Part shown: piece after piece, positions 1,205 to 27,098 of the stretch
Layout of the letters: every line of letters begins with the position of its first letter
Numbering within the stretch: position 1 is the stretch's first letter
DNA from: Methylobacterium sp. CB376
GTDB taxonomy: Bacteria; Pseudomonadota; Alphaproteobacteria; Rhizobiales; Beijerinckiaceae
Reading direction: 5' to 3'
DNA: 64,000 nucleotides
NCBI RefSeq assembly: GCF_029714205.1
Contig: NZ_CP121648.1
Location: forward strand, 4,291,001 to 4,355,000
The notes under the pieces: generated by a model
Told to the model about the DNA's origin: nothing
What the model saw: only the letters and a program-made list of their open reading frames with translations
The model's database searches: none
Translations under genes and position numbers: made by a program

Positions 1205-2401
1205 TCAGGGGCGCGGGAGGGCGTCGGCGCTGACCTGCTGGGCGGGAAAGACCGGGCGGACCCGGTCCCCGTCGCGCAGGAAGCTGCCGGCCCGGGCCAC
1301 GACGGCGTCGCCGGCCCGCACCCCGTCGCGGATCTCGATGAAGCCCGCCGCCGAGAGGCCGGTGCGGACCCGGCGCGCCTCGACCCGGTCGCCCGCCACG
1401 ACGAGGACGGTCGCGCCGCCATTGCCGTAGACGACCGAGGCGACCGGCACCGCGACGCCGGTGCGGCGCGCCACCTCGACGCTGCCGCGGGCGAAGGCGC
1501 CGATGCGCAGGCGCGGATCGGGGTCGAGGCGCACGCGCACCTTGCCGAGGCGGGTCGCGCGGTCGATCTCCGGATAGACCGCGCGCACGCGGCCCGGCAC
1601 GCCGACGGACCCGTCCGGCGTGTCGAGATCGAGCTGGGCGGGCGCGCCGGGCTTGAGCCGCGGCATGCCGGTCTCGGTCACCTCGCCCTCGAGTTCGATC
1701 TCGCCGCGGGCGATCAGCCGGAACAGCGGCTCGGCGGTCGCGCTCGCGGTGGCGCCGATCCGGGCGGTGCGGCGGCTGACGATGCCGCCCTCGGGCGCGC
1801 GGATCTCCGTGCGGGCGAGCTTGAGGTCGAGTTCCTTGCGCTGGGCCCGGGCCTGCAGGAGGTCGGCCTCGGCGATCGAGAGCCCGTTGCGGGCCGCGGC
1901 GAGCCGCCCCTCCGCCGAGCGCGCCGCCGAGGTGCGCTGCTCCATCTGCACCTCGGTCGCGTTGCCGGTCCGGATCAGGGTCCGGGTGCGCTCCAGCGCC
2001 AGGGCCGCCTCGACCTGCGCCGCCTCGGCCTGCACGATGGTGCTGCGGGCCTGCTCCACGGCGGCCTCGGCCCGGGCGATGGCGGCGGCGTTCTGGGCGA
2101 GCTGGGTGTCGATCATCTCCCGGGACAGGCGGGCGAGCACCGCGCCCCTGGCGACCCGGTCCCCCTCCTCGACCAGGAGTTCGGTGATGCGGCAGCCCTC
2201 GATCTCGGGCGAGACCATGATCTCGTCGCGCGGGACCAGGGTGCCGGTGACCACCGTGCGCTCGACGATCTCGCGCTCGGCCGCCACCACCACGGTGACG
2301 GCGGGCACGGGTACCTCGGTCTCTAACGTACGATGGCCCGTCGCCGCCGGCACCAGGCACATGACGGCGAGTAGCCAAGCGAGGCGGCTGCGGCGACACA
2401 T
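1205..2401 (-). CDS. RND efflux periplasmic adaptor (membrane fusion protein, HlyD/AcrA family)
   Basis: Periplasmic adaptor that joins an RND pump to an outer-membrane channel. The 398-residue product begins with a basic, hydrophobic signal peptide (about residues 1-22). A lipoyl/barrel-sandwich half follows near residues 60-95 (PEIEGCRITELLVEEGDRVARG), then a long alpha-helical hairpin rich in Ala, Glu and Arg (about 95-190), the second lipoyl half (IRAPEGGIVSRR) and a beta-barrel domain. The order and length fit the MFP family. It is the first gene of the pair with the permease at 1-1156. Its 5' end lies almost exactly where base composition falls sharply towards the nod region, so it marks the last backbone gene before the acquired segment. 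Confidence 0.93.
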   Translation of the reverse strand: MCRRSRLAWLLAVMCLVPAATGHRTLETEVPVPAVTVVVAAEREIVERTVVTGTLVPRDEIMVSPEIEGCRITELLVEEGDRVARGAVLARLSREMIDTQLAQNAAAIARAEAAVEQARSTIVQAEAAQVEAALALERTRTLIRTGNATEVQMEQRTSAARSAEGRLAAARNGLSIAEADLLQARAQRKELDLKLARTEIRAPEGGIVSRRTARIGATASATAEPLFRLIARGEIELEGEVTETGMPRLKPGAPAQLDLDTPDGSVGVPGRVRAVYPEIDRATRLGKVRVRLDPDPRLRIGAFARGSVEVARRTGVAVPVASVVYGNGGATVLVVAGDRVEARRVRTGLSAAGFIEIRDGVRAGDAVVARAGSFLRDGDRVRPVFPAQQVSADALPRP

Positions 2402-2661
2402 GACAGGGTACCCCGGTCGGCAGCTACCAGACTACGCATGGCCCAACGCCGCGCCGCCGGTGGTGCTGCTCGGCAGCTCGACCAGCGCGCTGCGCGGCAT
2501 TGCGGCTATATGAACATAGCGTATGCATTGTCGTTACCGGCTTCTACAATGCTCACGCCGACCAATCGCGGTTCTCCGAATGGATCACGTGTTAGTCTCA
2601 GCTCACACCACATCCGCAGCCCTACCAAAAACTCAGCCGCGGATAAAAGCAGCTTTTAATG

Positions 2662-3438
2662 TCAGCGTGTATCTCTCGATTGAAAAAATTTCTGGTAAGG
2701 GCCGCCGGAGAAGTAGCGCCTTAATTCATCGAAATTTTGGACCGTTTCTATCAAAGGCCGCATCTCCTGGCGTTGAAGATCGGTCAAACCAGAAGGCTGA
2801 TGCGGTCGAACTCCCAAAAAGCTCCAAACTGAATTCACGCAAGCGTTCCGATCGCGAGTGACATCTTCATAACGAACCACCATAACAGCACCAGACCCAA
2901 AGGAATGTACAACTCGCGCGTTAAAACAATCAGAAAGCCTGAAGTATGCCTCACAGTCAGCTGTCGATAGCCGGACACGCGGCGGCAGCGCGCCTCCGCC
3001 GTCGGAGCTAAACTTCAGCCAACGGCCAGATTGTCTTGCCTGGACAAGCGAGCGAAGCGACTCCAAGACATTAACGCGAACCATAAGAATGACTTTAAGA
3101 CCAGGCCACGCAACAAGCTCGTCAAATATGCCGGGACGGTCGCGAAATTGAGGTTCGTTGATCTTGCAGCCAACGTGCGTCACTTCTGCCTTGACAGATT
3201 TTGCGGTATATTGCAGGTACGCAACCTCGAGGAGCCCTCGATCGCTAAGTAACAACCGACTTTTGTCGGGCCAATTGCCTTCATACTGATTTAAAAGCTC
3301 GCCTCTGCTGTAGATGTTGGGATGCTCGTTAAGCAATTCCTCGAGAAAGTGTGTACCCACTCTCGGCATTGCCAGTATAACGAAGGGATGATGCGAAGAC
3401 ATCTGGCTGTCCATTGGTAGCACCATTAGACTACACAT
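2662..3438 (-). CDS. nodH: NodH, Nod-factor sulfotransferase
   Basis: Transfers sulfate from PAPS to the reducing-end GlcNAc of the lipochitooligosaccharide Nod factor, a host-range determinant. The translation matches NodH along its length: FVILAMPRVGTHFLEELLNE (5'-phosphosulfate-binding region), NQYEGNWPDKSRLLLSDR, THVGCKINEPQFRDRP and AWPGLKVILMVR. The product is 258 residues, close to the family length. The start is uncertain: Met1, Met5, Met9 and Met13 are all in frame upstream of the conserved core, and known NodH proteins begin about ten residues before it, which favours Met9 (3414). It is the last gene of the nodABCIJH run, 42 bases after nodJ. Base composition is clearly lower in GC than the efflux genes to the left. 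Its presence predicts sulfated Nod factors. Confidence 0.95.
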   Translation of the reverse strand: MCSLMVLPMDSQMSSHHPFVILAMPRVGTHFLEELLNEHPNIYSRGELLNQYEGNWPDKSRLLLSDRGLLEVAYLQYTAKSVKAEVTHVGCKINEPQFRDRPGIFDELVAWPGLKVILMVRVNVLESLRSLVQARQSGRWLKFSSDGGGALPPRVRLSTADCEAYFRLSDCFNARVVHSFGSGAVMVVRYEDVTRDRNACVNSVWSFLGVRPHQPSGLTDLQRQEMRPLIETVQNFDELRRYFSGGPYQKFFQSRDTR

Positions 3439-3480
3439 ACGATTGCAGGCCTAAGTTACGGCTATTTTGCCGAACCGGTG

Positions 3481-4269
3481 TCACCGTAGGAGACACCGGC
3501 GAAGCATTGCTGTCGCAAAGAAAAATGGCAGTATCGCGTACGCGCAAAGCACGAAAATATGCACGCCGACACCGCTGGTCGACCGTCCGAGCATCACTGG
3601 GCGAATGAGCTCGATCGAATGGACCAATGGCAAGACCGAGGTTAAATTTTTAAGCTCGCTCGGCAACTGATTGACGGGGAATACTGCGCCACACAGAAAC
3701 AACATGGGTGTGATAAAAAGGGTCTGATAAAATACAAAATGATCGTAACTGCGCGCCAAAGCAGCAACAAGCATAGCTAAGCTTGCGAAGGCAAGACCAG
3801 TGAGCGCAATGACGGGCAGCGCATAAAATGCGGACGGCCAAGCGGCGTAGCCAAGCACGCCCGCGATGATGATGATTCCGGACCCCGCTAGAAAAGCCCT
3901 TGTGGCTGCCCACGCTAGTTCCCCGAGAATAACATCGCCAAGCGTGAGTTGTGTATACAGAATTGCTTCCCAAGTGCGCTGGGCGTGCATGCGTGCGAAA
4001 GCCGCGTGGATTATTTCGAAAGTCGCCGAGGTCATGGCGGCAGTCGCGACCATACCTGCAGCAAGAAAGGCGATATACGGACTTCCCTCAACTTGATCGA
4101 TCATCAGTCCGACGCCGAATCCAAGACCAACCAGGTAAATCGTTGGATCGGCAAGATTACCAAGAATTGATGCAGGTGCAATTTTCTTCCAGGCTTGATA
4201 GTTGCGGAGCCACACCGCTAGCCAGTTCCACGCATTGGCGGGAAGAGCCGCTGCAAAATCTCCCGTCAT
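3481..4269 (-). CDS. nodJ: NodJ, ABC-2 type permease for Nod-factor export
   Basis: Membrane component of the NodIJ exporter that secretes lipochitooligosaccharides across the inner membrane. The 262-residue product has the N-terminal NodJ signature ([20 protein letters not shown]) and about six hydrophobic segments spread over residues 45-255, typical of ABC-2 permeases. The family motif [20 protein letters not shown] sits near residues 190-210. It starts three bases after the nodI stop, so the two are translationally close and presumably made in fixed ratio. Full length, with no sign of decay. nodH follows 42 bases downstream. Confidence 0.96.
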
Positions 4270-4272
4270 CGC

Positions 4273-5187
4273 TCATCTCTCCATCTCGTGACCAGTTAGC
4301 CGCAAAAAAACATCCTCGAGGTTCGGAGGACGCTGTAGAAGGCGTAAGCCCGAGCGCCCAAGAAGCTGGAGGCAAACCTGCTCTGGATGTGGCGTGTAGC
4401 AATAGAGAGTCTCGCCGCTAGCTTCGATGTGCCGCGCGTATGGTCCAATTATCGCACGTAGTTCACGCGGATTACCACCATAGACCTCGACTACATTGCA
4501 ACCGATCTGCTCCTGGATGAGTACGCGGGGCCGACCTTCTGCAATTCTGCGTCCATCGTCGAGAACACACACCCGGTCACACAGTCGCTCGGCCTCCTCC
4601 ATGAAATGGGTAGTCATTAAGATCGTTTTTCCTTTAGCTAGAAGTGAGCGAAGACGCTCCCAGATTAGGTGGCGCGCGTGCGGGTCGAGACCGGTTGTCG
4701 GTTCATCCATCACGAGCATCTCAGGATTATTGATCAAAGCACGCGCCAGGGACAGGCGCCTTCTCATGCCTCCGGACAACGTCGCGATGCGCGCATCCAC
4801 CTTGTCCTCAAGACGGGCAAACTCTAGGAGCGACGGCGTAACCGCTTTAATGTCGCGAGCACTCATGCCGAAGTAACGCCCGAACACGATAAGGCCCTCG
4901 CGCACTGTAAACTCGCTGTCGAGATTGTCGAACTGTGTGACTACGCCAATGCGGGATCGCGCCAAGCGAACGCGCGCCGGCACGGGCTCGCCGAACACAT
5001 TGATACTACCCGAGTCTAGCGGCGCTATGCCCAGGATCATGCGCGTGACAGTGCTCTTGCCCGCACCGTTAGGCCCTAATAATCCGAAGCATTCTCCGGG
5101 TGTAACGACGAAGGACAAGTCATCGACAACGACATTTTTGCCGTATGACTTCCTCACACCTTCAAGACTTATTGCTGTTATGGGCAT
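4273..5187 (-). CDS. nodI: NodI, ATP-binding protein of the Nod-factor exporter
   Basis: ATPase of the NodIJ exporter. It has Walker A (GPNGAGKST), a Q-loop region (VVTQFDNLD), the signature [12 protein letters not shown], Walker B ([13 protein letters not shown]) and the H-loop ([11 protein letters not shown]), in the order expected for the ABC-2/NodI group. The frame opens at 5199 with ATG-TGT-GAT-TTA-ATG. The GAGAGG ribosome-binding site lies directly against the first ATG but 12 bases from the second, so the start at 5187 is preferred; it gives 304 residues. The gene sits 338 bases downstream of nodC, an unusually large gap in this otherwise tight operon. Confidence 0.95.
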
Positions 5188-5199
5188 TAAATCACACAT

Positions 5200-5537
5200 C
5201 CTCTCTCAGGCGGCATTGCACGGTAATCACTGGCGGGTGTAATAAGCATCCGAACGACATTATTCACCAGCCGGTTCAGTGAGGGCGGTGATCGTTACGC
5301 GCTTCTATTACTGGAACATAGAATCTGGCCTTCAACCTAGATACTTAACCAGAAAATGGGCAATCTGGTGCAGTACACCGGAGCCACTTGCTGCGGCGTC
5401 AAACACTTCCGCTACGCACGCCCCCTTTCGCAACCACAGTCTGCAACGAAGGGCTACCATAAAGAAGGCAATATAAGTCAGACCCGCCGTGCGAAAGAGC
5501 GCTGGAACGGTGCCAGACTTGAATGTATCTGATGCTG
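5200..5537. other. Long nodC-nodI spacer, no recognisable gene
   Basis: Between the nodC stop and the nodI ribosome-binding site lie 338 bases, in contrast to gaps of 3-42 bases elsewhere in the operon. A 92-codon minus-strand frame (5332-5610) overlaps the 3' end of nodC in another register; its product has one hydrophobic stretch but matches no family I know. No second nod box is visible. In many rhizobia nodS and nodU lie exactly here, so the spacer may be the scar of their loss. That is inference. Confidence 0.5.
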
Positions 5538-6785
5538 CTATGTGCTTACTGTCACGGATTTTATGTAAACGCTTTTCTGCCCGTCGTATGGAGAGCCGCG
5601 GGACAACCAATTGCTATTACTGATTGTAAATAATGCATAAATCTTCAGCGGTATCAGTAAAAAGATGTTTATTGGCATGTGAAACAAGAAGCCGAGAAAT
5701 CGAAGTTGGCGAGCACGGACAGATGCTACGCAGCAGCGAATTATTGTCATTAAGACGATCATTAAACTCGGCCACCACGGGACGGAGGCCGTCGAAAACA
5801 CCTGTGCTATTCCCGCGATCAACGAAACAGTGAGCAATAGAAGCCCTATGTTCTGCCCAATCACATCCAGGGTCAGATAGCCGTCCAGTCTGGGAAGAAT
5901 ATATAGCGCGAGCAGCGTGTCACGGTAAGTACTACGCGCCCATCGCAGCTGCTGGCGCAGATACGAACTAAGTCTATCCGGGACGACAGTTGCTACACAG
6001 GCATCTGGTACGTACTCGGTTCGAAATCCTGCTTCTAGCATCAGTATCGTGAGATGCCGATCCTCACCAAAATTGCTTATTCTACCGCGAAAAACTTGTG
6101 TCTCGTACCGGTCTATCAACAGAAGCAGCGCGGACCGGCGGTACATCGCACAAGGACCGCAGCAGCACATAACGGCACCGAATCGACCTTGTGCCGCTCG
6201 TTCCTCATTACAGGCCAGCCAGTATTCCATATCAATCAACCGAGTCAACCATGTTTTCCGGCGGTTGCTAGCTGTTAACTGGCCCATTACCGCACCTACA
6301 GATGGATCTCGCATTCTCAGTGCGAGCTTTGCTACCACATCGCTATCCGCGGTCGTATCGGAGTCGATGTTGAGCACCAAGTCTCCCGTGGACCGGCGTA
6401 TCGCCGAAATCTGGGCTTTGCGCTTCCCAACATTATCTTCCAAATTAATGAACACGAACCTCGGATCGTGGGCAAAAACATCGTGCACTTGTGCCAATGA
6501 GCCGCGGTTGTCTGAGCCATCATCAACCACGTATATCTGCAGTTTCCCACTATATTCCTGACTTGCAATTGAAGAAAGACACTCGAAAAGCGTACACGGA
6601 TCTTCATTAAAGCAGGGGACAATGACATCTACGCTTGGCATGATACCCGAACCGACGAAAGCACTCCTTTTCGCTGGCGAAATAGTTGCGGGATCTGAAT
6701 AAAAAATCTGCACGCCTTTGTAGAACGCCGAGAGTAGCGCGTATAGTGATACAGCGCCGATGCTGGTTGCCGCGAATTTATCCAT
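5538..6785 (-). CDS. nodC: NodC, N-acetylglucosaminyltransferase (chitin oligosaccharide synthase)
   Basis: Builds the beta-1,4-linked GlcNAc oligomer of the Nod factor from UDP-GlcNAc at the inner membrane. The 415-residue product starts MDKFAATSIGAVSLYALLSA, as in other NodC proteins, with an N-terminal membrane helix. It carries the processive GT2 motifs in order: VDDGS, the metal-binding DSDTTADSD, GEDRHLT and the product-channel QQLRWARS. Hydrophobic helices follow from about residue 305 to 395. The C-terminus is slightly shorter than the best-known NodC proteins but ends after the conserved ISNSNWLSRGS region, so it looks functional. It lies 24 bases after nodB. Confidence 0.97.
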   Translation of the reverse strand: MDKFAATSIGAVSLYALLSAFYKGVQIFYSDPATISPAKRSAFVGSGIMPSVDVIVPCFNEDPCTLFECLSSIASQEYSGKLQIYVVDDGSDNRGSLAQVHDVFAHDPRFVFINLEDNVGKRKAQISAIRRSTGDLVLNIDSDTTADSDVVAKLALRMRDPSVGAVMGQLTASNRRKTWLTRLIDMEYWLACNEERAAQGRFGAVMCCCGPCAMYRRSALLLLIDRYETQVFRGRISNFGEDRHLTILMLEAGFRTEYVPDACVATVVPDRLSSYLRQQLRWARSTYRDTLLALYILPRLDGYLTLDVIGQNIGLLLLTVSLIAGIAQVFSTASVPWWPSLMIVLMTIIRCCVASVRARQLRFLGFLFHMPINIFLLIPLKIYALFTISNSNWLSRGSPYDGQKSVYIKSVTVST

Positions 6786-6809
6786 CTTGCATCTGCCAGT
6801 TTAGTGATC

Positions 6810-7460
6810 TTAGGGAAGAAGGCAAATTTTGAACCCATGGTTATGCAACTCCGGAATGAGACGAGAAAGTGCGATGACGGTCTGCTCTCGCGGGCCGACA
6901 TGAGTGCACGGAGCTGCGTCGCCGGGAGGACTACCGTCGTGCAGGAGCACGATTGCACCTGGACGAACTGAGTTTAGCACGCTGTCTATAATCGCATTAA
7001 CACCGGGGCGCGACCAATCTCGGGGATCCACAGACCAGTGGAGAGCCGCAAGTCCAGCTCTGGACGCAATACTGATTACTTCCGTTGTCCATTTTCCGTA
7101 CGGCGCACGCACATGCCGCAACGTACACTGTGGACAGGCCATGCGGATCGCTCTATTTGCCTGCAAAATCTCCTGCTCAACCGTATTCGGATCGCATATC
7201 GAAAAATCCGGGTGAGTCATGGTGTGGTTTGCCACCTCATGCCCATCTGAGATCATGCGCCGGATTAGCAGCGGCTCCCTTGCCGCGTACGCGCCAATGA
7301 CACAGAACGTTGCCGGCACGCCGTATTCCGCCAGCACATCGAGAATACCGGGAGTGCAATGTGGATTAGGGCCGTCGTCGAAGGTCAAATATACACTGGA
7401 ACGGTCTCCGCTTCGACCCCATCGGGTGGACAACTCGGATATACAATTAAATTTCTTCAT
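6810..7460 (-). CDS. nodB: NodB, chitooligosaccharide deacetylase
   Basis: Removes the acetyl group from the non-reducing terminal GlcNAc so that NodA can acylate it. The 216-residue product is a carbohydrate esterase 4 (NodB homology) domain. It has the catalytic [12 protein letters not shown] motif near residue 26, the metal-binding [13 protein letters not shown] near 73, RAPYGKWT and the histidine-containing IVLLHDGSP near 170. The start overlaps the nodA stop by four bases, the usual nodA-nodB coupling. Length and all key residues are normal. Confidence 0.97.
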
Positions 7461-8101
7461 AGTTCTGGTCCATTGCGATCAATTAGTGTACCTGGCGGCC
7501 AATGACTGACCGGCAGTTGAATGGGGAAAATTAGGATCAGAAGGTCCTCGACTCTCGTCGGTGGCATGTCGAGGCTCATGTCTCGGAGAGTGGAACGGAC
7601 GCGAACCCCGGACACAGTGGCCGCCAAACCGGCCTTACCGAGCAGCCTGGTGAGGTGTTTCTGAAGCGCAGGCCGGACTGTGCCAAACCCGAAAGGGACA
7701 CCGAGGTTTTTCAAAGCTGGATACAGCTCGAGCATCGAATAACTAACTCGCAATCCCTCGAGATCCAAACGTACTGCATACAATCCCAGTTCGACGACGA
7801 GTAAATCAACCATCCCAATTTTGATGAAGCGGCGTAGTGCGGCTATGTGGGCTGCGACGCCCTTCGAGTCGTAGCCGATAGCACGAAGTTCTGGTCTAGC
7901 ACCGGCCCAACTGCGACCGCCTTCAAATGGCCTGGCATTATACGCGCCGCTCGGGTTGTAGGCGTTCCGCAAGAATTCAGCGAGTTCAGCGTGGTCAGCG
8001 AGATCCAACTCACTTTCCCAGCACAGACGCCATCGCACCTGCAAACGACCCGGATGCTCCTCCGTTCGGGAGATAGAGCAAAAATCTGGATTGATTTTCA
8101 T
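7457..8101 (-). CDS. nodA: NodA, Nod-factor N-acyltransferase
   Basis: Attaches a fatty acyl chain to the free amino group made by NodB, completing the core Nod factor. The 214-residue product carries the family signatures [45 protein letters not shown] and the C-terminal [13 protein letters not shown]. Compared with the shortest NodA proteins it has an N-terminal extension of about 18 residues, which I associate with Bradyrhizobium/Methylobacterium-type NodA. It is the first gene after the nod box at 8159-8204. nodA variants influence which fatty acids are used and are a common marker for host range. Confidence 0.97.
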
Positions 8102-8158
8102 GGTACGACTGCATGCCCAGCAAGTTTGGCACCGCCCTGTATGCTAGGACCACAGCAC

Positions 8159-8204
8159 ATTTGTAAAATCGATTGTTTTGATGTAACGCATCTGGGTGGT
8201 GGAT
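8159..8204 (-). promoter_or_regulatory. nod box, NodD-binding promoter of nodABCIJH
   Basis: On the minus strand the element starts ATCCACCACC, runs through GATG and CGTTACATC, and ends with AAAACAATCGATTTTAC. This is the full-length nod box pattern with its ATC-N9-GAT half-sites. It lies 58 bases upstream of the nodA start and controls the whole operon through NodD and host flavonoids. Its other end is directly adjacent to the ribosome-binding site of the divergent nodD gene. Confidence 0.95.
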
Positions 8205-8210
8205 AGGAGG
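8205..8210 (+). promoter_or_regulatory. Ribosome-binding site of nodD, abutting the nod box
   Basis: AGGAGG, four bases before the nodD ATG at 8215. It begins at the base after the end of the nod box, so no room is left for a separate nodD promoter between the two. The nodD start site must lie inside or beyond the nod box. Confidence 0.85.
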
Positions 8211-8214
8211 GTAG

Positions 8215-9141
8215 ATGCGCTTCAAGGGCCTCGATCTCAATCTTCTCGTTGCGCTCGACGCTTTGATGAAAGAGAGAAATCTCACCCGCGCGGCAAGCAG
8301 TCTCAACCTAAGCCAGCCCGCAATGAGCGCGGCTGTCGCGCGTTTGCGCGCATATTTCCGAGATGAGCTATTTATCATGCGGGGCCGCAAACTCGTTTTA
8401 ACGCCACGCGCGGAGGAACTTTCCGCCCCAGTCCGCGAAGCTTTGCTGCATATTCAGCTCGCAATTGTTTCTCGAGATACCTTTGAGCCATCCCAATCAG
8501 AGCGGTGTTTCAGAATCGCTCTTTCTGATTTCATGACGGTCGTATTTTTTAGACGTGTGATGGAGCGGCTTACGACGGAAGCACCCGACATCAGCTTCGA
8601 GTTACATGAGCTCGCCGATGACCCTGACGAACTTCTTCGGCGTGGCGAAGCCGATTTTCTAATCTGCCCAGAATTGTTTCTGTCGGATGCGCATCCAAGA
8701 GCGTCTCTTTTCTCTGACACACTTGTTTGTGTAGGCTGCCGCGCGAACGACAAGCTATCGCGACAGCTTACATTTGATAGCTACGTGTCGATGCGCCACG
8801 TCGTAGCGAAATTCGGGCGCAAGCGAAAGCCTTCCCTGGAAGAATGGTTCCTGCTGGAACATGGAATAAAGAGACATATAGACATTGTGGTGCAGAGTTT
8901 CACTATGATACCGCATATGATTTTGGGAACTGATCGGATTGGAACGATACCATTAAGCCTTGCCAGGTATTTTGAAAATATCCTGCCTCTGCGCATCGTC
9001 GATTTACCACTTCCGTTTCCTGAATTTTGTGAGTCCGTTCAATGGCCGGCCCTGCATAATTCTGATCCGGCAAGTATTTGGATGCGGGATGTGTTTTTCT
9101 TTGAAGCGTGTAGGGTGGGCTCGCCGGGCAACGCTGCCTGA
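8215..9141 (+). CDS. nodD: NodD, LysR-family flavonoid-responsive activator
   Basis: Binds the nod box and activates nodABCIJH when it senses plant flavonoids. The 308-residue product begins [18 protein letters not shown], the standard NodD N-terminus. An HTH follows at about residues 20-45 ([19 protein letters not shown]), then a LysR substrate-binding domain. [10 protein letters not shown] and the C-terminal [19 protein letters not shown] fit NodD closely. It is divergent from nodA and shares its upstream region. It is the last intact gene before the transposon debris at 9.2-12 kb. Confidence 0.96.
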
Positions 9142-19119: not shown

Positions 19120-19947
19120 TCACTCCTGTGCTGGTACTCTCAGGCGCTGCATGTGACCGAGCATCTTGCCGACGATAGCGCCAAGTTGTTCGCTCACCTG
19201 CGTAGAGTATGACAGGGCCACCTCCGTGACGCCTCCCGGCGTGGCCCTGTGGCCCTCCGCTTGCTTCGAGGCCGCGTGGTGTCCACGCAGCCTCCTGGTT
19301 AGTTCATCGAACACGACGTGCATCACATCGTCCAGCGCTGCGGGCGTGAGACCACGTTCGGTTAAACTGTCCTCTATCGTCCTTGCGAGTGATGACCTGA
19401 TTAGTGTCAGGAGCGGACCCGCTAGGAGCGTCATCAGATCATAGGCCTGTTCCTCTTCCATCCAACTGGTCGGGCCCAGTAGCTGGAGAGCCGCGATCGC
19501 TGATGAAATTCGAGGATCGGCCCGCGCGACATCGTCCAGAAGTCCGATCGAACGAACTTCGCCCCCGTCCTGGGGAATGGCCGGGCTGAGCCGCGTCACC
19601 AGCGCATTCGGGAGAGCCTGGCGCACGATGCTCACCTCGGCGTCGATCCCCATGGCGAACATGACGCCATCGAAGCTGCGAAGACCACGGCGCTCAGCTA
19701 GCCCCACCAAGGCTTGGTTCGGGATTGCGGAGAAAATGACGCGAGACTGTATGACAACATTGAAATCGTTGCCAGATTTCTTGCCAGCTACCGGAGGCGA
19801 TGCGGAATCACCGAAGCGACGGCTCCACGTAATGACGTGCTTGCCTCCCTCCCTCATTCGGGTGGCGACCGCGTCCCCGAGGCGTCCGGCGCCAAAAACA
19901 CCGACCGCGTCGGTCGATCCCGATACATGCGTGATAGAAGGTTTCAT
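19120..19947 (-). CDS. Pyrroline-5-carboxylate reductase-like protein (ProC family)
   Basis: An NAD(P)H-binding Rossmann domain starts at about residue 14 (VGVFGAGRLGDAVATRM), and the C-terminal dimer domain carries the ProC hallmark RATPGGVTEVALS. The 275-residue length is normal. ProC makes proline from P5C; the nucleotide loop here is GAGRLG where classical ProC has a G-x-G-x-M/I-G form, and overall similarity looks distant. Lying between the transporter and the deaminase gene of the hydroxyproline locus, it could reduce a cyclic imine such as pyrroline-4-hydroxy-2-carboxylate, but that is a guess. It is divergent from the gene at 20576, with a 628-base region between them. Confidence 0.72.
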   Translation of the reverse strand: MKPSITHVSGSTDAVGVFGAGRLGDAVATRMREGGKHVITWSRRFGDSASPPVAGKKSGNDFNVVIQSRVIFSAIPNQALVGLAERRGLRSFDGVMFAMGIDAEVSIVRQALPNALVTRLSPAIPQDGGEVRSIGLLDDVARADPRISSAIAALQLLGPTSWMEEEQAYDLMTLLAGPLLTLIRSSLARTIEDSLTERGLTPAALDDVMHVVFDELTRRLRGHHAASKQAEGHRATPGGVTEVALSYSTQVSEQLGAIVGKMLGHMQRLRVPAQE

Positions 19948-20575
19948 GTGATGTCATCCTCGGGCCTGTGACGGACATGTCGAGCGCCGACGCCGAGAGC
20001 TGGGCCTCGACCTACCTCAAGACGGGAAATCCTCTCTCGGCGGGCTAAGACGGCTCGTCCACAGAGGCGTGACGAGTCGATGCTCGCTCCGCGAACAGCG
20101 ACGGCGGTCGGAAAAACGCCACGAGGCGTGCACCACGCCTGCGAAGATGGTGCAAGACGGGCCCATTGGGCGCTGGATTGCGGACCAATGTGCCGGCATT
20201 GCGCGCATCGTGTTTCCATATGCCGTAGTTTTGTGGACCGAACAAGACCGAAAAACCGCAGATCGTGCTTGTGTCATGCGCCCGGATTGATATATAGCAT
20301 GATGCGAATGACATAGGACGCGGCGGGCCAGGAATGAGTATGGAACGGCAATCGTCGAGGCGCCTGTGTTCGCAGGGGGCTTCCGTGGCCTTAATAAGTG
20401 GCGCGCCCGAGCCGGCCTAAAGATGCCCGATTGGGTCTTGGCCGGATCAAGGTTCGCGAGAGGCTGGGGCTCCCTGCCATAGGCGGTGAGGAAGTCGGCT
20501 ACATCAAAGCGTGCATACTCGGTCCGCTCGCGGCCGCTCTCGCTCAAACATCAACTCATTCTGGAGGACACTGCT
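19948..20575. other. 628-base divergent intergenic region
   Basis: Lies between the ProC-like gene (minus) and the DHDPS-family gene (plus) and must hold the promoters of both. A GGAGG at 20563-20567 serves the plus-strand gene. Short open frames exist on both strands (for example 20017-20547 minus) but none resembles a known protein. I recognise no riboswitch or RNA gene. An AT-rich patch near 20290-20315 is a plausible promoter location. Confidence 0.4.
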
Positions 20576-21475
20576 ATGGCAAATATTGACTGGGGCGGCA
20601 TCTTCCCGGTTCTCGTAACCCCGTTTGGGCCAGACGGGTCTATCAACGAGCTGCGATACAAGGAGCTGATCGATGAAGCGATCAGGAACGGTGCTCGCGG
20701 CATCGTTGCGGCCGGTAGCACGGGCGAGTTCTATGCACTCACGATCAGTGAGCGCGCCCGCCTCTATAAGCTCACGGTCGATCATGTAGCCGGTCGAATT
20801 CCCGTCTTGGCCGGAGTTGCCGACCTCCGCGTTGAGGATGTGGTTGATGCCTGCCAGGCCGCGGTCGCAGCGGGTTGCGTCGGTGGGATGATTCTGCCGC
20901 CCATTTACGCCATGCCAAGCCCGCGTGAGATCGTCGCCTTCTTTGAGCACGTCTCTCGGAGCAGCTCGCTGCCGTTGATGCTGTACAACAGCCCAAGGCG
21001 CGCAGGTATTGATATCAATCCGGCGCTGGTCGAGCAGCTCTCCAAGCTTCCCACGGTCGTTGCAATCAAGGACAGCTCCGGGCTGATTAATCAGGTCACC
21101 GAGCTAGTGCAGCGTGTCGGCGGCAGCCTTCGCGTGTTCGTGGGGTACGAAACCATGATCGTACCGGCCCGTGCGGTAGGTGCTCACGGCGTCATCGCCA
21201 TGGCACATCAGATCGCGGGGCCTCTCATTCGCGATTACTGGGATCAAGCGTTGAAAGGCGGTGAGTCCGTGGATGACATGGGCCGCGATGTCTTCGCATT
21301 CTACCGCTGCTTCCAATCAGGCGCCTATTACGCCGCAATCAAAGAGACCATGACACAGCTTGGACGTGACGCAGGTGGGCCGCGTCTGCCGCTGCTTCCC
21401 CTGACCGGCGACCAGAAAGCTGCGATTGCCAAGATTATCGGAGAGGCCGGGCTGAGCCGCTGGGCGAAGACCTGA
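20576..21475 (+). CDS. DHDPS/NAL-family lyase, probable pyrroline-4-hydroxy-2-carboxylate deaminase
   Basis: A class I aldolase-fold enzyme of 299 residues with GSTGEFYAL, the catalytic tyrosine (LPLMLYNSPRRAGIDI) and the Schiff-base lysine (VVAIKDSSG). DHDPS-family proteins in hydroxyproline loci convert delta1-pyrroline-4-hydroxy-2-carboxylate to 2-oxoglutarate semialdehyde and ammonia. The assignment rests on the adjacent epimerase, aldehyde dehydrogenase and FAD dehydrogenase. The frame opens at 20486, but GGAGG at 20563-20567 selects the ATG at 20576. Dihydrodipicolinate synthase itself or another aldolase role is less likely in this context. Confidence 0.84.
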   Translation: MANIDWGGIFPVLVTPFGPDGSINELRYKELIDEAIRNGARGIVAAGSTGEFYALTISERARLYKLTVDHVAGRIPVLAGVADLRVEDVVDACQAAVAAGCVGGMILPPIYAMPSPREIVAFFEHVSRSSSLPLMLYNSPRRAGIDINPALVEQLSKLPTVVAIKDSSGLINQVTELVQRVGGSLRVFVGYETMIVPARAVGAHGVIAMAHQIAGPLIRDYWDQALKGGESVDDMGRDVFAFYRCFQSGAYYAAIKETMTQLGRDAGGPRLPLLPLTGDQKAAIAKIIGEAGLSRWAKT

Positions 21476-21677
21476 AGCATCACGGCGTCCGCCCACGCCT
21501 CTCTCCGGAACGTCCGATCAAACAAAGGGTGACGTTGCGAGCACGTAGATGGTTGCGTGCGCACCGGGATCGTGGGCGCGTTAGGTGAGAGGACCTCGTA
21601 AATTTCCGGACCGAGCTATCCGGGCTCGTTTCGATCGGCATTCGCGTGCGAAAGCCCGCACTTTCTGAAGGACGGCT

Positions 21678-23111
21678 ATGTATACGAAATTGGCCCTATT
21701 TATTGATGGCGAGTGGATTGAGGAAGCCAGTGCCGGCAGCGAAGTGGTTCTCAATCCGGCAACAGAGCAGCCGCTCGGCACGCTGCCTCACGCCGGCCGG
21801 CCGGAGTTGGATCGAGCGCTCGCGGCGGCAGATCGCGCCTTCCACGGCTGGAAGCGCACGTCGCCTTATGAGCGTGGGCAGATCCTGCGGCGCGCCGCCA
21901 TCCTCATGCGTGAGCGACTCGTTCACATCGCGACTGTGCTGACGCTCGAGGAGGGCAAGACGCTTGCAGAGGCCAAGGGAGAGATCACAGCTGCGGCAGA
22001 GTTCTTCGATTGGTTCGCCGAAGAGGGACGGCGGAGTTACGGGCGCATCATCCCTGCCCGACTCGCCGGCATGCTTCAAACCGTGACGCAGGAGCCGATC
22101 GGCCCCGTCGCCTGTTTTACCCCGTGGAACTTCCCGGCCGTGACCCCGGCCCGAAAGATCGCGCCTGCTCTGGCGGCAGGGTGCACCTGCATCATCAAGC
22201 CGGCTGAGGAAACTCCGGGCACGACGCTAGAGATTGCGCGTGCGCTTAGCGATGCCGGCCTACCGGCCGGCGTGCTCAACGTTGTATTCGGCAACCCGGC
22301 AGAAGTCTCGGAGTATCTTCTGAGATCTCCCGTGATCCGCAAGATCTCGTTCACCGGATCGACCCCAGTTGGCCGCCATCTTGCGCGCATCGCGGGAGAG
22401 ACGCTGACGCTGGCCACGATGGAACTCGGCGGACATGCCCCAGTCATTGTTGCGAAGGACGCCGATATCCGTCGCGCCGCCGAGCTGTCGATGGCGGTCA
22501 AGCTGCGTAACACGGGGCAGGTTTGCACGTCGCCGACGCGCTTCTTCGTAGAACGCCCCGCTTACGAGGAGTATCTGGAGCACGCGCGCGCTCTCGTCGA
22601 GAAGCAGGTGGTCGGCGACGGCCTGTGGCCCGAGACGACGGTCGGACCTGTCGCGAACGCCCGCCGCGTCGCTGCCATGGACGACCTGATTTCGGATGCT
22701 CTCTCGCACCAGGCTCGGCTCATCGCCGGCGGAGAGCGTATCGACGGGGTCGGGCTCATGTACAAGCCTACTATCCTCGCGGACATTCCGGATCACGCTA
22801 AGGCGATGTCGCACGAACCATTCGGCCCGCTGGCCCTCGTGCAGCCGGTCGAAGACATCGGCCACGCGCTCGCGCGGGCGAATTCGCTGCCCTACGGCCT
22901 AGCCGGATACGCTTTCACGAGTTCCTCAGCGACGGCGAACCGCATCTCCGAAGAACTAGCTGTCGGTGTCATCGGGATCAACCAGATGGTTGTTACAATC
23001 CCTGAGACGCCCTTCGGCGGCGTCGGAGATAGTGGCTGGGGGCGTGAGGGCGGGATTGAGGGTCTTGAGGCCTATATGAGTAAGAAATACGTAGGCCACC
23101 TTCACGTCTGA
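21678..23111 (+). CDS. NAD(P)-dependent aldehyde dehydrogenase, probable 2-oxoglutarate semialdehyde dehydrogenase
   Basis: A 477-residue ALDH. TPWNFPAVTPARKIAPALAA is the cofactor region, FTGSTPVGRHLA the Rossmann motif, MELGGHAPVIV the general-base glutamate and NTGQVCTSPTRFFV the nucleophilic cysteine. The succinate-semialdehyde-type subfamily includes the 2-oxoglutarate semialdehyde dehydrogenases of hydroxyproline, arabinose and glucarate pathways. Placement directly after the DHDPS-family gene makes the last step of hydroxyproline breakdown its probable job. A 202-base gap separates it from the upstream gene. Confidence 0.86.
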   Translation: MYTKLALFIDGEWIEEASAGSEVVLNPATEQPLGTLPHAGRPELDRALAAADRAFHGWKRTSPYERGQILRRAAILMRERLVHIATVLTLEEGKTLAEAKGEITAAAEFFDWFAEEGRRSYGRIIPARLAGMLQTVTQEPIGPVACFTPWNFPAVTPARKIAPALAAGCTCIIKPAEETPGTTLEIARALSDAGLPAGVLNVVFGNPAEVSEYLLRSPVIRKISFTGSTPVGRHLARIAGETLTLATMELGGHAPVIVAKDADIRRAAELSMAVKLRNTGQVCTSPTRFFVERPAYEEYLEHARALVEKQVVGDGLWPETTVGPVANARRVAAMDDLISDALSHQARLIAGGERIDGVGLMYKPTILADIPDHAKAMSHEPFGPLALVQPVEDIGHALARANSLPYGLAGYAFTSSSATANRISEELAVGVIGINQMVVTIPETPFGGVGDSGWGREGGIEGLEAYMSKKYVGHLHV

Positions 23112-23240
23112 GCGCGACGTGGTTCTTTCTACGTCGGGAGAACCTTCCGTCGACCCACAGAGCTAGCGCGAGTCCGATCTACCGAAGAGCCGTAGAGCTT
23201 TTCGCTTAGCATAGACTCGCCCTAATCTCGGGAGGTTCGA

Positions 23241-24476
23241 ATGGTACAAGCGAGGTCTATTGCCGTTGTGGGAGGAGGGCTCATCGGCATCAGCTGCGCC
23301 CTCTCCCTCTCCAGGGAAGGCCATCGCGTGACTGTGTTCGAGGAAGGCAAGGTCGGTCATGGTTGCTCCTGGGGCAACGGTGCCCAGTACAATGCCGGGA
23401 CCTCGCTGCCGATGTCCTATCCGGGGGTGATGTGGCGTGCGCTGAGATGGCTTGCTGACAGGAATGGACCCGTACATCTCGCTGCTCGAGAGCTTCCTCG
23501 GAATATCGGATGGCTCCTGCGTTTCATTGAGACGGGTTCTCCGAAGAGATGGGAGAAAACATACACTGCTCTCAACGCGCTTAATGCGCCGTGCTCCGAT
23601 CTATACAAAGACCTGCTGGGCGATGACGAATGGACTAAAATCTTCCGACCTAGCGGTGCTCTTCATGTCTATCGAGAGTCCACGCGCGGCCGACTCGACG
23701 ATCAAATCGAGCGGTTGCGGATGAGCCACGGGGCCACCTTTGAGAAAATTTCCGCTGAAGACATCCGGCAACTAGAACCGAACCTGTCCAAGGACTATCA
23801 GCGCGGCGTCTACTTTCCGGGCAGCGGTTACGTTGATTCTCCTGTGGCGCTAGTGGAGCGCTTAAATGCACGCGCTACATCATTCGACACGAAGGTGCAG
23901 CACGCGCGCGTCTTGTCCATTGAGCCGGGATCGGAGGCTGTGACGCTCCATACAACGTTGGGTTCTCATCGCTGCGACTTGATCGTCATTGCCGCCGGCA
24001 TCGCCAGTCGTGATTTGGCGAGAAGCCTCGGCGTATACTTGTCCATGGCGAGTGAGCGAGGCTACCATGTGGCGCTGTCGGATGTCGCTGGCGCGATCAG
24101 CCGCCCCGTCACCGACACGGCTTCAGCCTTTGTCGCGACTCCGCTCTCAGAAGAGTTGAGAGTGGTCGGCATAGCGGAATTCGACAAGGCCGACGCGCCT
24201 ATCAGGAGTAGTCAGACGGACAAGCTTCTCGTGGCAGCCCGCCGTATGATACCGGACCTTCAAGTCAGTACGGTGCGACATTGGATGGGCATCCGTCCAT
24301 CCACTCCGGACAGCCTACCCATTATAGGACCGCATCCGAAGCACACCGCCATCCTGTTCGCGACAGGGCACGGTCACCTGGGGATCAGCGGGGCGCCTAT
24401 GACGGCTGCCTTGATTTCCGACATCGTCGCGGGCCGGCGCCCTCGCATCCCACTCGCGCCGTACGGCGTCAGGTAG
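23241..24476 (+). CDS. FAD-dependent D-amino-acid dehydrogenase (DadA family), probable cis-4-hydroxy-D-proline dehydrogenase
   Basis: A single-subunit flavoenzyme of 411 residues. The N-terminal dinucleotide fold is AVVGGGLIGISCALSLSREG with the acidic residue EEGKVG; the C-terminal FAD part includes HWMGIRPSTPDSLPIIG and FATGHGHLGISGAPMTA, both DadA/DAO hallmarks. It would oxidise the D-hydroxyproline made by the epimerase to the pyrroline intermediate. Some bacteria use a multi-subunit enzyme here; this locus appears to use the simple DadA-like type. GGGAGG just upstream is a strong ribosome-binding site. Confidence 0.86.
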   Translation: MVQARSIAVVGGGLIGISCALSLSREGHRVTVFEEGKVGHGCSWGNGAQYNAGTSLPMSYPGVMWRALRWLADRNGPVHLAARELPRNIGWLLRFIETGSPKRWEKTYTALNALNAPCSDLYKDLLGDDEWTKIFRPSGALHVYRESTRGRLDDQIERLRMSHGATFEKISAEDIRQLEPNLSKDYQRGVYFPGSGYVDSPVALVERLNARATSFDTKVQHARVLSIEPGSEAVTLHTTLGSHRCDLIVIAAGIASRDLARSLGVYLSMASERGYHVALSDVAGAISRPVTDTASAFVATPLSEELRVVGIAEFDKADAPIRSSQTDKLLVAARRMIPDLQVSTVRHWMGIRPSTPDSLPIIGPHPKHTAILFATGHGHLGISGAPMTAALISDIVAGRRPRIPLAPYGVR

Positions 24477-24807
24477 GTGTGGGGGCGACTGCGGGGCGGC
24501 CGCGCAAATCTCCTGCGAAACGACTGAACAAGCGCTTCACTTTCAACGCTTTGACCTGGTACATGTACCGCACTGCCCCTTCTTGCATCAGGCCTGATCA
24601 ATGTCAATGTGGAGTTCGGTTGCCGCGTTCCTCCTGTGTTCACGGATTGAAGCCGTGTATCCCAGAGATCGTGGTGAAAGAGTGTCTCAGCCGCGCCACT
24701 GGTGCCACCTGCCTGAACCCATACGAACGAAGAGCTAATTCGTTGGTCACACGCGGTCGCTAGAGTCGGACCTACGGTTGATAGATCAGCGCAAGGAAAA
24801 TTGCTTC
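24477..24807. other. 331-base spacer before the MocR regulator
   Basis: No supportable gene or RNA seen. The frame of the regulator opens at 24778, so its promoter probably lies here. Short frames on both strands look like shadows. Confidence 0.4.
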
Positions 24808-26199
24808 ATGGCCTCGGAGAAGACCAAGTTTTTCGGCTGGCTGCCCCGGGAGCTGTCGTCGGAAGGTCCGCGCTACCTTGCTCTGGTAAATGCGCTTGAG
24901 CAGGACGTCGTGGAGAACCGTCTAGTCGACGGCTCGCGCCTCCCGCCGCACCGTGAACTGGCTGCGCAGATCGGATTATCAGTTGGTACTGTCAGCAAAG
25001 CATATCAAGAGGCGGAGCAACGGGGCATCGTCAGCAGCCATGTCGGGCAGGGGACTTTTGTGCGCAGGCGCGCATCGACCGTCCCAATCGGCGCGGCCGC
25101 GCCGCAAGCCGTGAACATGGCCCTCAATGTGCCAGCTCATGGTCGCGAGGCGGATGTTCTCTCTGGGCTCCTGAGCGATGTCTACCGTCCCCAAGAACTA
25201 GCGCCACTACTCGATTATCATCCCCATTCAGGCATCGGGCATCATCGCGAAGTCATTGCCCGCTCCATTTCGGATGATGCGTTCAGCGTTGATCCCGCGC
25301 TGCTGTATCTGTGCAACGGCGCTCAGCATGCCCTCGACATTGCCGTGCGTCTCGTGGCACAGCCAGGCGACAAGATACTCGTCGATCGGCTCACCTACTC
25401 GGGCTTCAAGGCGATCGCAGTCGCGAACTCACTCACGCTCGTGCCGGTTGATCTTGATGATGAAGGCACCGATCCTGACGCCTTGGAGGCAGCGTGCCGG
25501 CTTTCTGGTGCCCGCGTCTATTACTCTATGCCGACTCTACAAAGTCCGACAGCGCGGACCATGAGTCTCCAGCGACGAAAGCGCATTGCCGAATTGGCCG
25601 AAAAACTTGACCTCCTCATTATTGAGGACGACGTCTACAGTTTCTTCTATCCTGAAAGGCCGCTTCCGATCGCGGCGCTCGTGCCCGAAAGAAGTTTCTA
25701 TGCAACGTCTTATTCTAAGTGTGTCGCACCGGGTTTTCGGCTCGGAACACTCTCGGTTCCTCCCGCGTTCAAGGGTCGGGCTGAATTATTTGTCCACGCC
25801 TCCTCATGGTTCGCTGCACCCATCTTGGGTGACCTGGCGGTTCGTCTTCTCGAGAGCGGCAGGCTCGATGAGCTGATTCGTGAGCGGAGGCGGCAGGCAA
25901 CCGAGCGGTATCGTCTCTTCGCGAAGTTCTTTCCGTTTGTGGAGAAGCTGGACAATCCCCCTTTCTACGCCTGGCTGCCCTTGCCGCAGGAATGGTCCGC
26001 ATCGCGTTTCACTTCGGCGGCACGCGGGCAGGGCATCCTCGTAACGCCTCCGACCGCCTCCACTGTTGATGACGACGATCCGGGCGCCGTTCGCGTGTGC
26101 CTAGGTGCGCCAGACGATCTAAGCGAGCTTTCCGGTGCTCTCTCCATCCTTAGCGAGATCCTTGCTCGGCCACCTCTGAGCGTCTTCTCTGTCGCTTGA
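24808..26199 (+). CDS. MocR-type transcriptional regulator (GntR HTH + aminotransferase-like domain)
   Basis: A DNA-binding winged helix of the GntR family (LPPHRELAAQIGLSVGTVSK and GIVSSHVGQGTFV, about residues 50-95) is fused to a class I aminotransferase-fold domain. The latter has an intact PLP lysine in YATSYSKCVAPGFRLG and the aspartate region LLIIEDDVYSFFYP. MocR proteins sense amino compounds through PLP. Position at the end of the plus-strand hydroxyproline genes makes it their likely regulator. ATG 24778 is also in frame, ten codons earlier; the ATG at 24808 (463 residues) is preferred because the family usually starts just before this conserved region. Confidence 0.86.
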   Translation: MASEKTKFFGWLPRELSSEGPRYLALVNALEQDVVENRLVDGSRLPPHRELAAQIGLSVGTVSKAYQEAEQRGIVSSHVGQGTFVRRRASTVPIGAAAPQAVNMALNVPAHGREADVLSGLLSDVYRPQELAPLLDYHPHSGIGHHREVIARSISDDAFSVDPALLYLCNGAQHALDIAVRLVAQPGDKILVDRLTYSGFKAIAVANSLTLVPVDLDDEGTDPDALEAACRLSGARVYYSMPTLQSPTARTMSLQRRKRIAELAEKLDLLIIEDDVYSFFYPERPLPIAALVPERSFYATSYSKCVAPGFRLGTLSVPPAFKGRAELFVHASSWFAAPILGDLAVRLLESGRLDELIRERRRQATERYRLFAKFFPFVEKLDNPPFYAWLPLPQEWSASRFTSAARGQGILVTPPTASTVDDDDPGAVRVCLGAPDDLSELSGALSILSEILARPPLSVFSVA

Positions 26200-27098
26200 A
26201 CTTGATAATAGGCAGCGAAGAGGCGCCAATGATTTTTACTGTCGAGAGGTGTCGAAGGCGAGTGCAACCACTCCGTCGTTATTTCGGACGGCTGACTTGA
26301 GAATTTGAGCGTGCGCTTAGTGGCTCGCGCTTCAAAATTCAGAAGCGATGAATGTCATGTTGTGCGTCGCGGTTGTTTGAAATCTGAGCGCGTCAAAGGC
26401 CATCGGAGTTTACGACTGCCATGCAAATCCGCAACGATGGGGCGAATGCACGCCTCCTCGATTGTCCCGGCTTTATAGGCGCCCCAATGGATGTGCTGCA
26501 CGAATATGCGCGCGGGGAGATCGAGAGCGTGGAACGGACGGTCGGTCGCTGCGGCGAAGGTGACGGTGCGGCGGATCCCGCGCGTCTCGTGATCGGGGTA
26601 GGCACCTATCGCCTCGGCATAATCGAGATCGGTGCCCGCTCGACCCGGGGCAGCCAGCTTTACATGGACGACACTGTCGGTGCGCCGGGCGAGGCGGGCG
26701 ACGTCGTTGCGGCTGAGACCGACTGGGCGTCGGTCAAATCGCTTGCTACCGCGCTCGACGAGCCTCCGGATTTCTCCCGACCGATCTTCCTGAAAAGCGT
26801 GCGTTGTGGTGCTTGGGATCTGGCTGCTTGCCGGGTGGCGCGGGCACGTCCCGCTTGCTGAGACAGCGCGAGCAGAAATGATGAAGTAATCCGTGCGGGT
26901 CCAATGACGATTTCATTAAAATTGGAAAATCTGAGTTATGTGGACGGTGCGAGCCTACCCGTCTCTGATGGAGCGATCCGAACCATTTTATCGTTATTTC
27001 CGATTAATCGTACGTCACGAGCTAGAAAAAAAACGCTGTGTGTTGCGCATCGATATTGATACTTGTTGGTGCGCTCACGATCCGAATGGGGAAGAGCT
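26200..27098. other. About 900 bases without a convincing gene; possible decayed coding sequence
   Basis: Separates the lower-GC hydroxyproline locus from the GC-rich glutamate dehydrogenase gene. On the minus strand a frame without a start codon runs over roughly 26360-26870. It reads like protein in places (ARIFVQHIHWGAYKAGTIEE), but I cannot match it to a family. It could be a gene remnant. An AT-rich stretch at 26890-27060 immediately precedes the dehydrogenase gene and is the likely promoter region. Confidence 0.4.

Follow-up and report, generated by a model that had tools for sequence, protein, structure and literature searches.

Neighbouring nodulation and putative imino-acid catabolic gene blocks in the chromosome of Methylobacterium sp. 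CB376

The stretch of Methylobacterium sp. CB376 DNA analysed here (contig NZ_CP121648.1, positions 4,291,001 to 4,355,000; the whole 64 kb is termed the window, and its own positions are used below) carries genes for Nod-factor production next to a 14-kb block of catabolic genes (12131-26199). We propose, with a probability of roughly 0.68, that these are two separately acquired symbiotic blocks that now lie side by side, namely a Nod-factor operon and an operon for the catabolism of an imino acid of the proline class, which is probably imported as an amide or dipeptide conjugate, with 4-hydroxyproline or a close analogue as the likeliest substrate. The proposal draws on the gene content, on the catalytic motifs that are retained, on a close clade that is nearly restricted to rhizobia in the collections searched, and on the unequal arrangement and composition of the blocks. 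A previous sequence-only reading of this DNA had described a symbiosis segment that makes use of a host compound; its link to nodulation is upheld by the data presented below, while its single island is not.

Gene content, composition and arrangement of the two blocks

The relevant features of the window are:

2662-9141: low-GC nod block, with nodH, nodJ, nodI, nodC, nodB and nodA on the minus strand and nodD on the plus strand (Pfam; GC 0.50-0.56)
8157-8205, minus strand: nod box before nodA, between nodA and nodD (consensus match)
9210-10568, minus strand: IS1182-type transposase open reading frame (NCBIfam NF033551, 242.6 bits, under the cut-off of 270)
11216-11602, minus strand: IS110-type transposase fragment (partial PF02371 match)
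12131-13102, plus strand: proline-racemase-superfamily (PRS) enzyme of the Cys/Cys type, MCGH ... DRSPC (PF05544, 266.6 bits; motifs; tree)
13103-14479, plus strand: prolidase-type amidohydrolase, putative (solved-structure relatives; NCBIfam)
14512-18998, plus strand: Liv-type ABC importer (Pfam; NCBIfam for three of the five parts)
14512-15729, plus strand: Liv substrate-binding protein (SBP)
15786-16652 and 16652-17539, plus strand: Liv permeases
about 17539-18294 and 18291-18998, plus strand: Liv ATPases
19120-19947, minus strand: P5C-reductase/imine-reductase-like NAD(P) enzyme (homologues, motifs, Foldseek)
20573-21475, plus strand: DHDPS-superfamily enzyme (PF00701, 194 bits)
21678-23111, plus strand: aldehyde dehydrogenase (ALDH), SSADH/KGSADH-like (PF00171, 497 bits; TIGR01780, 451 bits, below cut-off)
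23241-24476, plus strand: FAD D-amino-acid dehydrogenase-like enzyme (DAO; PF01266, 195 bits; 28.7% to the S. meliloti protein at the HypO position)
24778-26199, plus strand: MocR-type (GntR/aminotransferase) regulator (PF00392 and PF00155; nearest NCBIfam model EhuR, below cut-off)
27063-31940, plus strand: large NAD-glutamate dehydrogenase (GDH), second copy (PF05088, 831 bits)

The first block is an ordinary Nod-factor operon, comprising nodABC, a nod box and nodD. Pfam matches identified NodA (310 bits), a NodB-type deacetylase, a NodC-type glycosyltransferase, NodI/NodJ-type ABC parts, a sulfotransferase corresponding to NodH and a LysR protein corresponding to NodD, and the best plasmid matches of the block are rhizobial nod regions (68-69%). 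The nod box differs from the consensus at 4 of 41 informative positions and was the sole match with at most 14 mismatches within the 64 kb; the same scan found none at the catabolic genes. The Pfam matches and the nod box thus bear out the earlier placing of nodABCIJH and nodD. An excerpt of the published genome description gives the nodD-nodABCIJH region as ~6.5 kb with 52.5% GC, in a chromosome of 71.6% GC (PMC11837538).

GC content and GC at third codon positions (GC3) were 0.50-0.56 and 0.52-0.60, respectively, in the nod genes and 0.55-0.64 and 0.62-0.73 in the catabolic genes, compared with 0.76 and 0.96 in the HlyD flank and 0.68 and 0.84 in the GDH flank. These values agree with the previous remark that both parts are poorer in GC than the flanking efflux and glutamate dehydrogenase genes. 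The transposon debris noticed between them consists of the IS1182-type reading frame and the IS110-type fragment, and this insertion-sequence (IS) stretch at 9-12 kb has a GC content of 0.67-0.68, indicating that there are two AT-richer blocks and not one.

Joint inheritance of the nod and catabolic blocks was not observed in an M. nodulans-like genome (G030) or in WSM2598 (G050), a strain of the same species as CB376. On the 7,772,460-base chromosome of the former the nod genes (4,094,830-4,101,562) are located ~54 kb from a full catabolic set (4,026,396-4,040,497), which is adjoined by a second, partial catabolic cluster that ends at 4,049,842. In WSM2598 the main scaffold carries the nod genes and a 56-kb scaffold (scaffold 4) carries the catabolic set together with a GDH, at about 94-96% DNA identity, while the chromosome joins the equivalents of window positions 9618 and 28126, with GDH truncated. 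As this joint (G050:C1:6511901-6512197) contains 100 N it may be an assembly gap, and loss of the block is unproven.

The domains previously assigned to the second block (an epimerase-type PRS enzyme, a DHDPS-family protein, an aldehyde dehydrogenase, an FAD dehydrogenase, a Liv importer and a dipeptidase-like enzyme) were confirmed at superfamily level by Pfam and NCBIfam matches. The PRS motifs ADMCGHATI and FDRSPCGTGTS retain both catalytic cysteines and the prolyl-nitrogen His and Asp of the 4HypE reference Q4KGU2, residues that an excerpt of PMC4113996 numbers C88/C236, H90 and D232; the same excerpt reports Ser in place of the first Cys in one published 4HypE family. The best solved relatives of the amidohydrolase, each aligned over most of the protein, are 3mkv (406 bits) and 3feq/3n2c (364 bits; the sequence is named PROLIDASE), while its match to the Xaa-Pro dipeptidase model NF051886 is below cut-off. 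These amidohydrolase-superfamily prolidases prefer Xaa-Pro and N-acyl-Pro; unlike them, the putative prolidase of the window sits in a symbiosis-linked cluster. The DHDPS protein retains the Schiff-base Lys and the active-site Tyr, which are common to the S. meliloti and native DapA-like proteins with which it was compared and do not settle the reaction. A closest relationship of this protein to MosA was considered and dropped: 2vc6, which we take to be MosA, scores 107.6 bits, and several DapA entries score higher.

The P5C-reductase-like gene had been overlooked in the earlier reading. Its product, which contains the motifs GAGRLG and TPGGVT, has 18 homologues among 5.8 billion proteins, and the 12 with an organism name are all from rhizobial genera. 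Its structure model (pLDDT 69.6) retrieved MtP5CR as the top Foldseek hit, with PYCR1 and IRED among the best, at a TM score of about 0.5 and with 14-18% identity in most of the top rows. The closest relatives of the window GDH come from different Methylobacterium lineages, with 85% identity in G095 and up to 79% in the rest, and the other GDH copy of CB376, at 4,122,913, is 67% identical to it. No convincing NifA/RpoN sites were found in the window, where one RpoN-like site lies within the P5C-reductase-like gene, and a comparison of the window's intergenic regions for a common operator returned five loose 15-mer matches.

Family membership and neighbourhood suggest how the block may work. 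The Liv importer would take up a conjugate from which the prolidase-type amidohydrolase would release the imino acid; the Cys/Cys PRS enzyme would then invert the alpha carbon, the FAD dehydrogenase would form a cyclic imine, the DHDPS enzyme would open and deaminate this ring, and the aldehyde dehydrogenase would yield 2-oxoglutarate or an analogue. The neighbouring GDH may balance glutamate and ammonium, MocR may sense the substrate, and the P5C-reductase-like enzyme may reduce an imine in a side branch.

Distribution of the catabolic genes among nodulating bacteria

NodA was detected in 3 of 111 Methylobacterium genomes. PRS relatives with at least 74% identity were present in all three and in none of the 108 nodA-negative genomes (next best identity 39%), and the same three genomes of the 111 contain DHDPS relatives with at least 76% identity (next best by E-value 32%). 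For both enzymes the association with nodA has a Fisher P value of 4.5e-6; such P values, here and below, ignore kinship, and two of the three nodA-positive genomes belong to one species. The previous reading had stated that the cluster occurring in non-nodulating relatives would speak against it; such an occurrence was looked for in the 108 nodA-negative Methylobacterium genomes and not found. This pattern, along with the single clade that the genes form with those of other rhizobia (see below), supports the view that the catabolic block goes with nodulation. The M. nodulans-like genome has seven DHDPS places, one of them a fragment, and the window gene is the only member of its DHDPS clade in CB376. 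Among 265 genomes of a further genus (that of G145), the DHDPS clade was found in 5 of 139 nodA-positive and 0 of 126 nodA-negative genomes (P 0.04). This genus is probably Bradyrhizobium, as the matches in G724 and G716 have the same coordinates as in named Bradyrhizobium records.

A similar association was apparent across genera. Genomes found through PRS contributed 51 loci, and NodA was searched for in the 10 genomes with PRS identity of at least 67% and at 26 of the 39 loci with 42-55%. A full NodA was present in 9 of the 10 compared with 3 of the 26, with one weak match besides (Fisher 2e-5). In a protein database search whose scoring was limited to the 7,997 candidates with the most words in common, 37 proteins, including the window's own, had a DHDPS identity of at least 69%, and the 17 with an organism name were all from rhizobial genera. 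The full catabolic set also occurs in Microvirga zambiensis, and in Microvirga VF16 all but the reductase-like gene was seen.

In a PRS tree of 36 rows chosen from 106 matches, the 18 rhizobial rows form one clade (support 100/99) whose inner branches are short and which is well removed from the canonical HypRE group; it spans Methylobacterium, Microvirga, Bradyrhizobium, Rhizobium, Mesorhizobium and Neorhizobium; the second PRS copy of the M. nodulans-like genome branches separately from the first. So shallow a clade across several bacterial families suggests that the gene spread horizontally. As rows within the clade are mostly grouped by genus, transfers between genera need not be many.

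Candidate substrates and alternative explanations

One account of the substrate, possible but rather less likely than not, is that trans-4-hydroxyproline of the host, either free or in peptides, is broken down by the cluster to 2-oxoglutarate, the source being cell-wall glycoproteins of roots and infection threads. An excerpt of PMC4113996 describes PRS, DAAO, DHDPS and ALDH as the neighbourhood signature of 4-hydroxyproline catabolism, and genes of the last three superfamilies do lie near PRS in the window. As in bacterial trans-4-hydroxyproline catabolism (4HypE, c4Hyp oxidase, Pyr4H2C deaminase and KGSA dehydrogenase), the same four enzyme superfamilies are accompanied by an importer, which here adjoins the enzyme genes, and both the Cys/Cys pair with its prolyl-nitrogen residues and the prolidase-type amidohydrolase fit this substrate. 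The window set departs from the hyp system of S. meliloti in having a Liv-type importer, an extra amidohydrolase and an extra P5C-reductase-like gene. Compared with the S. meliloti pSymB loci, which we take to be the hyp genes (the record has no annotation there), PRS shows 33%, DAO 29% and ALDH 27.5% identity.

Several findings weigh against the reading of two symbiotic blocks with 4-hydroxyproline as the likeliest substrate. PRS scored below the cut-offs of the curated 4HypE equivalogs (219.7/376, 194.5/450 and 168.3/442 bits), and none of the queried enzymes passed the cut-off of any NCBIfam model among those listed, the best score of the DHDPS protein being 189 to the DapA model against a cut-off of 206. 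To the corresponding DHDPS protein of the hyp locus in S. meliloti it is 24% identical across 169 residues (E 3e-5). CB376 also contains, at about 3.87 Mb (G000:C1 about 3875000; L153:8641-10894), a canonical-type 4HypE/HypO pair. As regards distribution, most of the nodulators examined lack the cluster; in an even, order-wide draw of 397 genomes the clade was present in one of nine with a full NodA, and G367, without NodA, carries a 57% DHDPS relative. Microvirga VF16 has the cluster and lacks nodA, and NodA was found on two of the five plasmid records that carry cluster genes.

The canonical pair is 65% (PRS) and 44% (DAO) identical to the S. meliloti genes. Its presence elsewhere in the chromosome, combined with the distance of the window PRS and DHDPS lineages from those of S. 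meliloti, argues against the host-hydroxyproline account and indicates that the window genes make up a further, divergent system of the proline type. A general host compound would, moreover, leave unexplained the recurrence of nfe2-like and ornithine-cyclodeaminase-like (OCD) genes beside cluster genes in other rhizobia. Thus, a proline-class imino acid, or a conjugate of one, is the likely substrate class, and 4-hydroxyproline from the host is a possible substrate. The sequence-only reading had listed the genes needed to convert 4-hydroxyproline to 2-oxoglutarate; the superfamilies were corroborated, membership of the curated 4HypE and S. meliloti-type DHDPS groups was not, and the conversion is something that we infer at superfamily level rather than observe. 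In a review of proline in legume symbiosis, of which a part was available, the main text contains the word 'hydroxyproline' zero times (PMC9197100). Annotated Xaa-Pro peptidase and serine hydrolase genes adjoin core genes on plasmids of R. etli Mim1 (L099) and Mesorhizobium NZP2077 (L102), the NZP2077 serine hydrolase being a beta-lactamase-family protein and Mim1 also having an M20 aminoacylase; this proximity hints at a conjugated substrate.

The nfe2-like genes of other rhizobia allow for a substrate that is made in the nodule. In rhizobia, nfe genes enhance competitiveness for nodulation in a NifA-dependent manner. The M. nodulans-like genome has five DHDPS copies, including one fragment, that belong to neither of its two PRS clusters, and each of them lies directly 3' of an nfe2-like gene on the same strand. 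These five genes, which encode GluTR-domain proteins, are located at:

L030:14450-15469
L157:6797-7813
L029:628-1644
L158:9394-10368 (aligns piecewise)
L159:12124-13071

Four of them have a common predicted NifA/RpoN-type promoter. The L030 protein contains a GluTR N-terminal domain and is 46.6% identical to the annotated nfe2 product of S. meliloti GR4, which is itself barely over the GlutR_N cut-off (27.2 versus 27). At E 1e-15 the family numbers 50 homologues, of which the 43 with an organism name are all from rhizobial genera; on plasmids it was found in 18 rhizobial records and in three actinobacterial ones at 25-30%.

Co-location with cluster genes recurs in other strains. In Mesorhizobium AR02 a single strand carries, one after another, nfe2-like, OCD, SBP, PRS, permease, ATPase, DHDPS, ATP-grasp (with an L-amino-acid-ligase domain) and MocR genes, and nfe2-like and OCD genes are near cluster genes also in AR10, Mim1, Bradyrhizobium 187, M. 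loti UFLA and S. meliloti GR4. The DHDPS clade occurs on eight plasmid records (two from one strain), four of which also have an nfe2-like gene, giving a very rough P of 9e-4 under random placement among the 267 plasmid records that match the nod region. Five other plasmid stretches combine nfe2-like with ATP-grasp genes, and in three of these an MFS transporter is encoded no more than about 7 kb away. In Rhizobium NLR16a the nfe2-like gene is about 7 kb from nifH. The same stretch (L187:333-12435) has, within about 12 kb after nifHD, ectB-like, ATP-grasp, Ddl-like, nfe2-like, ATP-grasp and MFS-transporter genes, possibly a small-molecule biosynthetic cluster. A further parallel to the window is the nfe locus of S. 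meliloti GR4 pRmeGR4b, where relatives of the window amidohydrolase, Liv, MocR and ALDH proteins (65-86%) are encoded 8-18 kb from the annotated nfe1/nfe2, and these adjoin an OCD gene. In contrast with the window, the 26-kb GR4 stretch has no PRS and a DHDPS at 32% only; in contrast with GR4, the CB376 stretches examined have no nfe2-like gene. Among the matches listed from the open-licence PMC literature there was no paper on nfe genes, nor one on the catabolic cluster or its nfe2 link.

Pairs of NifA and RpoN sites were sought up to 600 bp upstream, with chance estimated from 300 first-order Markov resamples. A pair was found in 6 of 17 nfe2-like regions (chance 0-0.003 each), belonging to four near-identical copies in the M. 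nodulans-like genome, to GR4 and to R. leguminosarum BIHB 1217, where it lies 500-580 bp upstream. In contrast, 1 of 109 regions of catabolic genes (identity at least 57%, overlapping loci included) had such a pair, and that stretch is shared with the nfe2-like gene of M. loti UFLA. A ~24-kb stretch of WSM2598 (G050:C1:1167793-1192155) contains an nfe2-like gene, DHDPS, an ALDH fragment, MocR, a second nfe2-like piece and OCD, and is missing from CB376 at the corresponding spot (4015351-4015426).

It could be argued from these observations that the cluster is the catabolic arm of a system resembling opine use. Nitrogen-fixing rhizobia would make a proline-like (dipeptide) compound in the nodule through Nfe2-like, OCD-like and L-amino-acid-ligase enzymes, and free-living kin would re-import and consume it; we regard this as rather doubtful. 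The Nfe2-like protein would be a GluTR-like enzyme and the OCD-like protein a cyclizing or imine-reducing one, with a proline-like amino acid or its dipeptide as the product, while the catabolic arm would consist of a Liv or polar importer, a prolidase or Xaa-Pro peptidase, PRS, DAO, DHDPS, ALDH and MocR. CB376 would then be a consumer, and WSM2598 has genes of both arms. In this view nfe2-like and OCD would be the synthesis genes. Candidate synthesis genes that have promoters of the nodule type, adjoin catabolic genes lacking these and differ between strains of one species form a pattern reminiscent of rhizopine systems. Like the window cluster, the rhizopine mos/moc systems include a regulator of the MocR type and an enzyme of the DHDPS family, which in their case is MosA. 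According to an excerpt of PMC7825764, rhizobia produce rhizopines inside nodules and free-living rhizobia consume them, the genes being closely linked on the Sym plasmid. In contrast with rhizopines, which are scyllo-inosamine derivatives, the window cluster has proline-type enzymes and no known product. The adjacency of nfe2-like to DHDPS in the M. nodulans-like genome, the AR02 run with its counterparts in five other strains, the unequal promoter counts and the WSM2598 stretch all favour a nodule-made compound. Against it, four of the six promoter regions are near-identical copies in one genome, leaving three genomes, and the pair in BIHB 1217 is distant. No pair was found upstream of the WSM2598 nfe2-like genes, and no nfe2-like gene was found in the window or the 360 kb around it in CB376, the remaining genome not having been searched. 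Until a compound is known, this explanation stands as an alternative and not as a verdict.

It is also unlikely, in our estimation, that the cluster serves ordinary soil amino-acid catabolism and has merely hitch-hiked on symbiotic plasmids or islands without a symbiotic role. Its patchy occurrence among nodulators would be expected on these grounds, as would the location of the 42-55% PRS relatives mostly in genomes without NodA (23 of 26 lack a full one) and the lack of a nod box or a convincing NifA/RpoN site at the window catabolic genes. The close clade is, however, almost confined to nodulators of six genera, and the catabolic genes have been retained and multiplied in the M. nodulans-like genome. 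Finally, a single symbiosis island holding both sets of genes is very improbable and already largely refuted: although the blocks are adjacent in CB376 and both fall below their flanks in GC, they differ in GC3, are separated by IS debris and so do not constitute one contiguous low-GC unit, lie ~54 kb apart or on separate scaffolds in the two related genomes, and occur in a window in which a tRNA search found none.

Genomic setting and implications

The CB376 genome is 7,694,389 bases in two contigs of 7,636,458 and 57,931; an excerpt of PMC11837538 gives 7.69 Mb, with a chromosome of 7.64 and a plasmid of 0.06, and a ~330-kb symbiosis region without the consistent low GC of an island. The best nifH match in the chromosome is at 3,971,512. 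An Rfam scan of the window returned zero families at gathering scores, and a DNA comparison of the 57,931-base plasmid with the window gave no match at E 1e-20. A tyrosine (phage-type) integrase gene lies at 60924-62081, ~29 kb past GDH and near dips in GC to about 0.54-0.55. An HlyD-type gene at 1205-2401 adjoins the nod block; CB376 has a 98% identical second copy at G000:C1:511888-513006, and the M. nodulans-like genome likewise has two copies, one adjoining nod.

With close relatives of the catabolic genes found nearly only in nodule bacteria, from six genera, the block suggests that the nodulation niche offers a nutrient of its own. Were this host hydroxyproline, symbionts living in infection threads or in dying nodules would gain a concrete benefit from the block. 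A substrate that the bacteria make under the control of nitrogen fixation would instead be a new nutrient of nodule origin, next to the rhizopines. Should the comparison with opines prove true, rhizobia of several genera would possess an unrecognized opine-like system, the long-known nfe nodulation-competitiveness genes would acquire a biochemical role, and the system may provide a tool for favouring inoculant strains.

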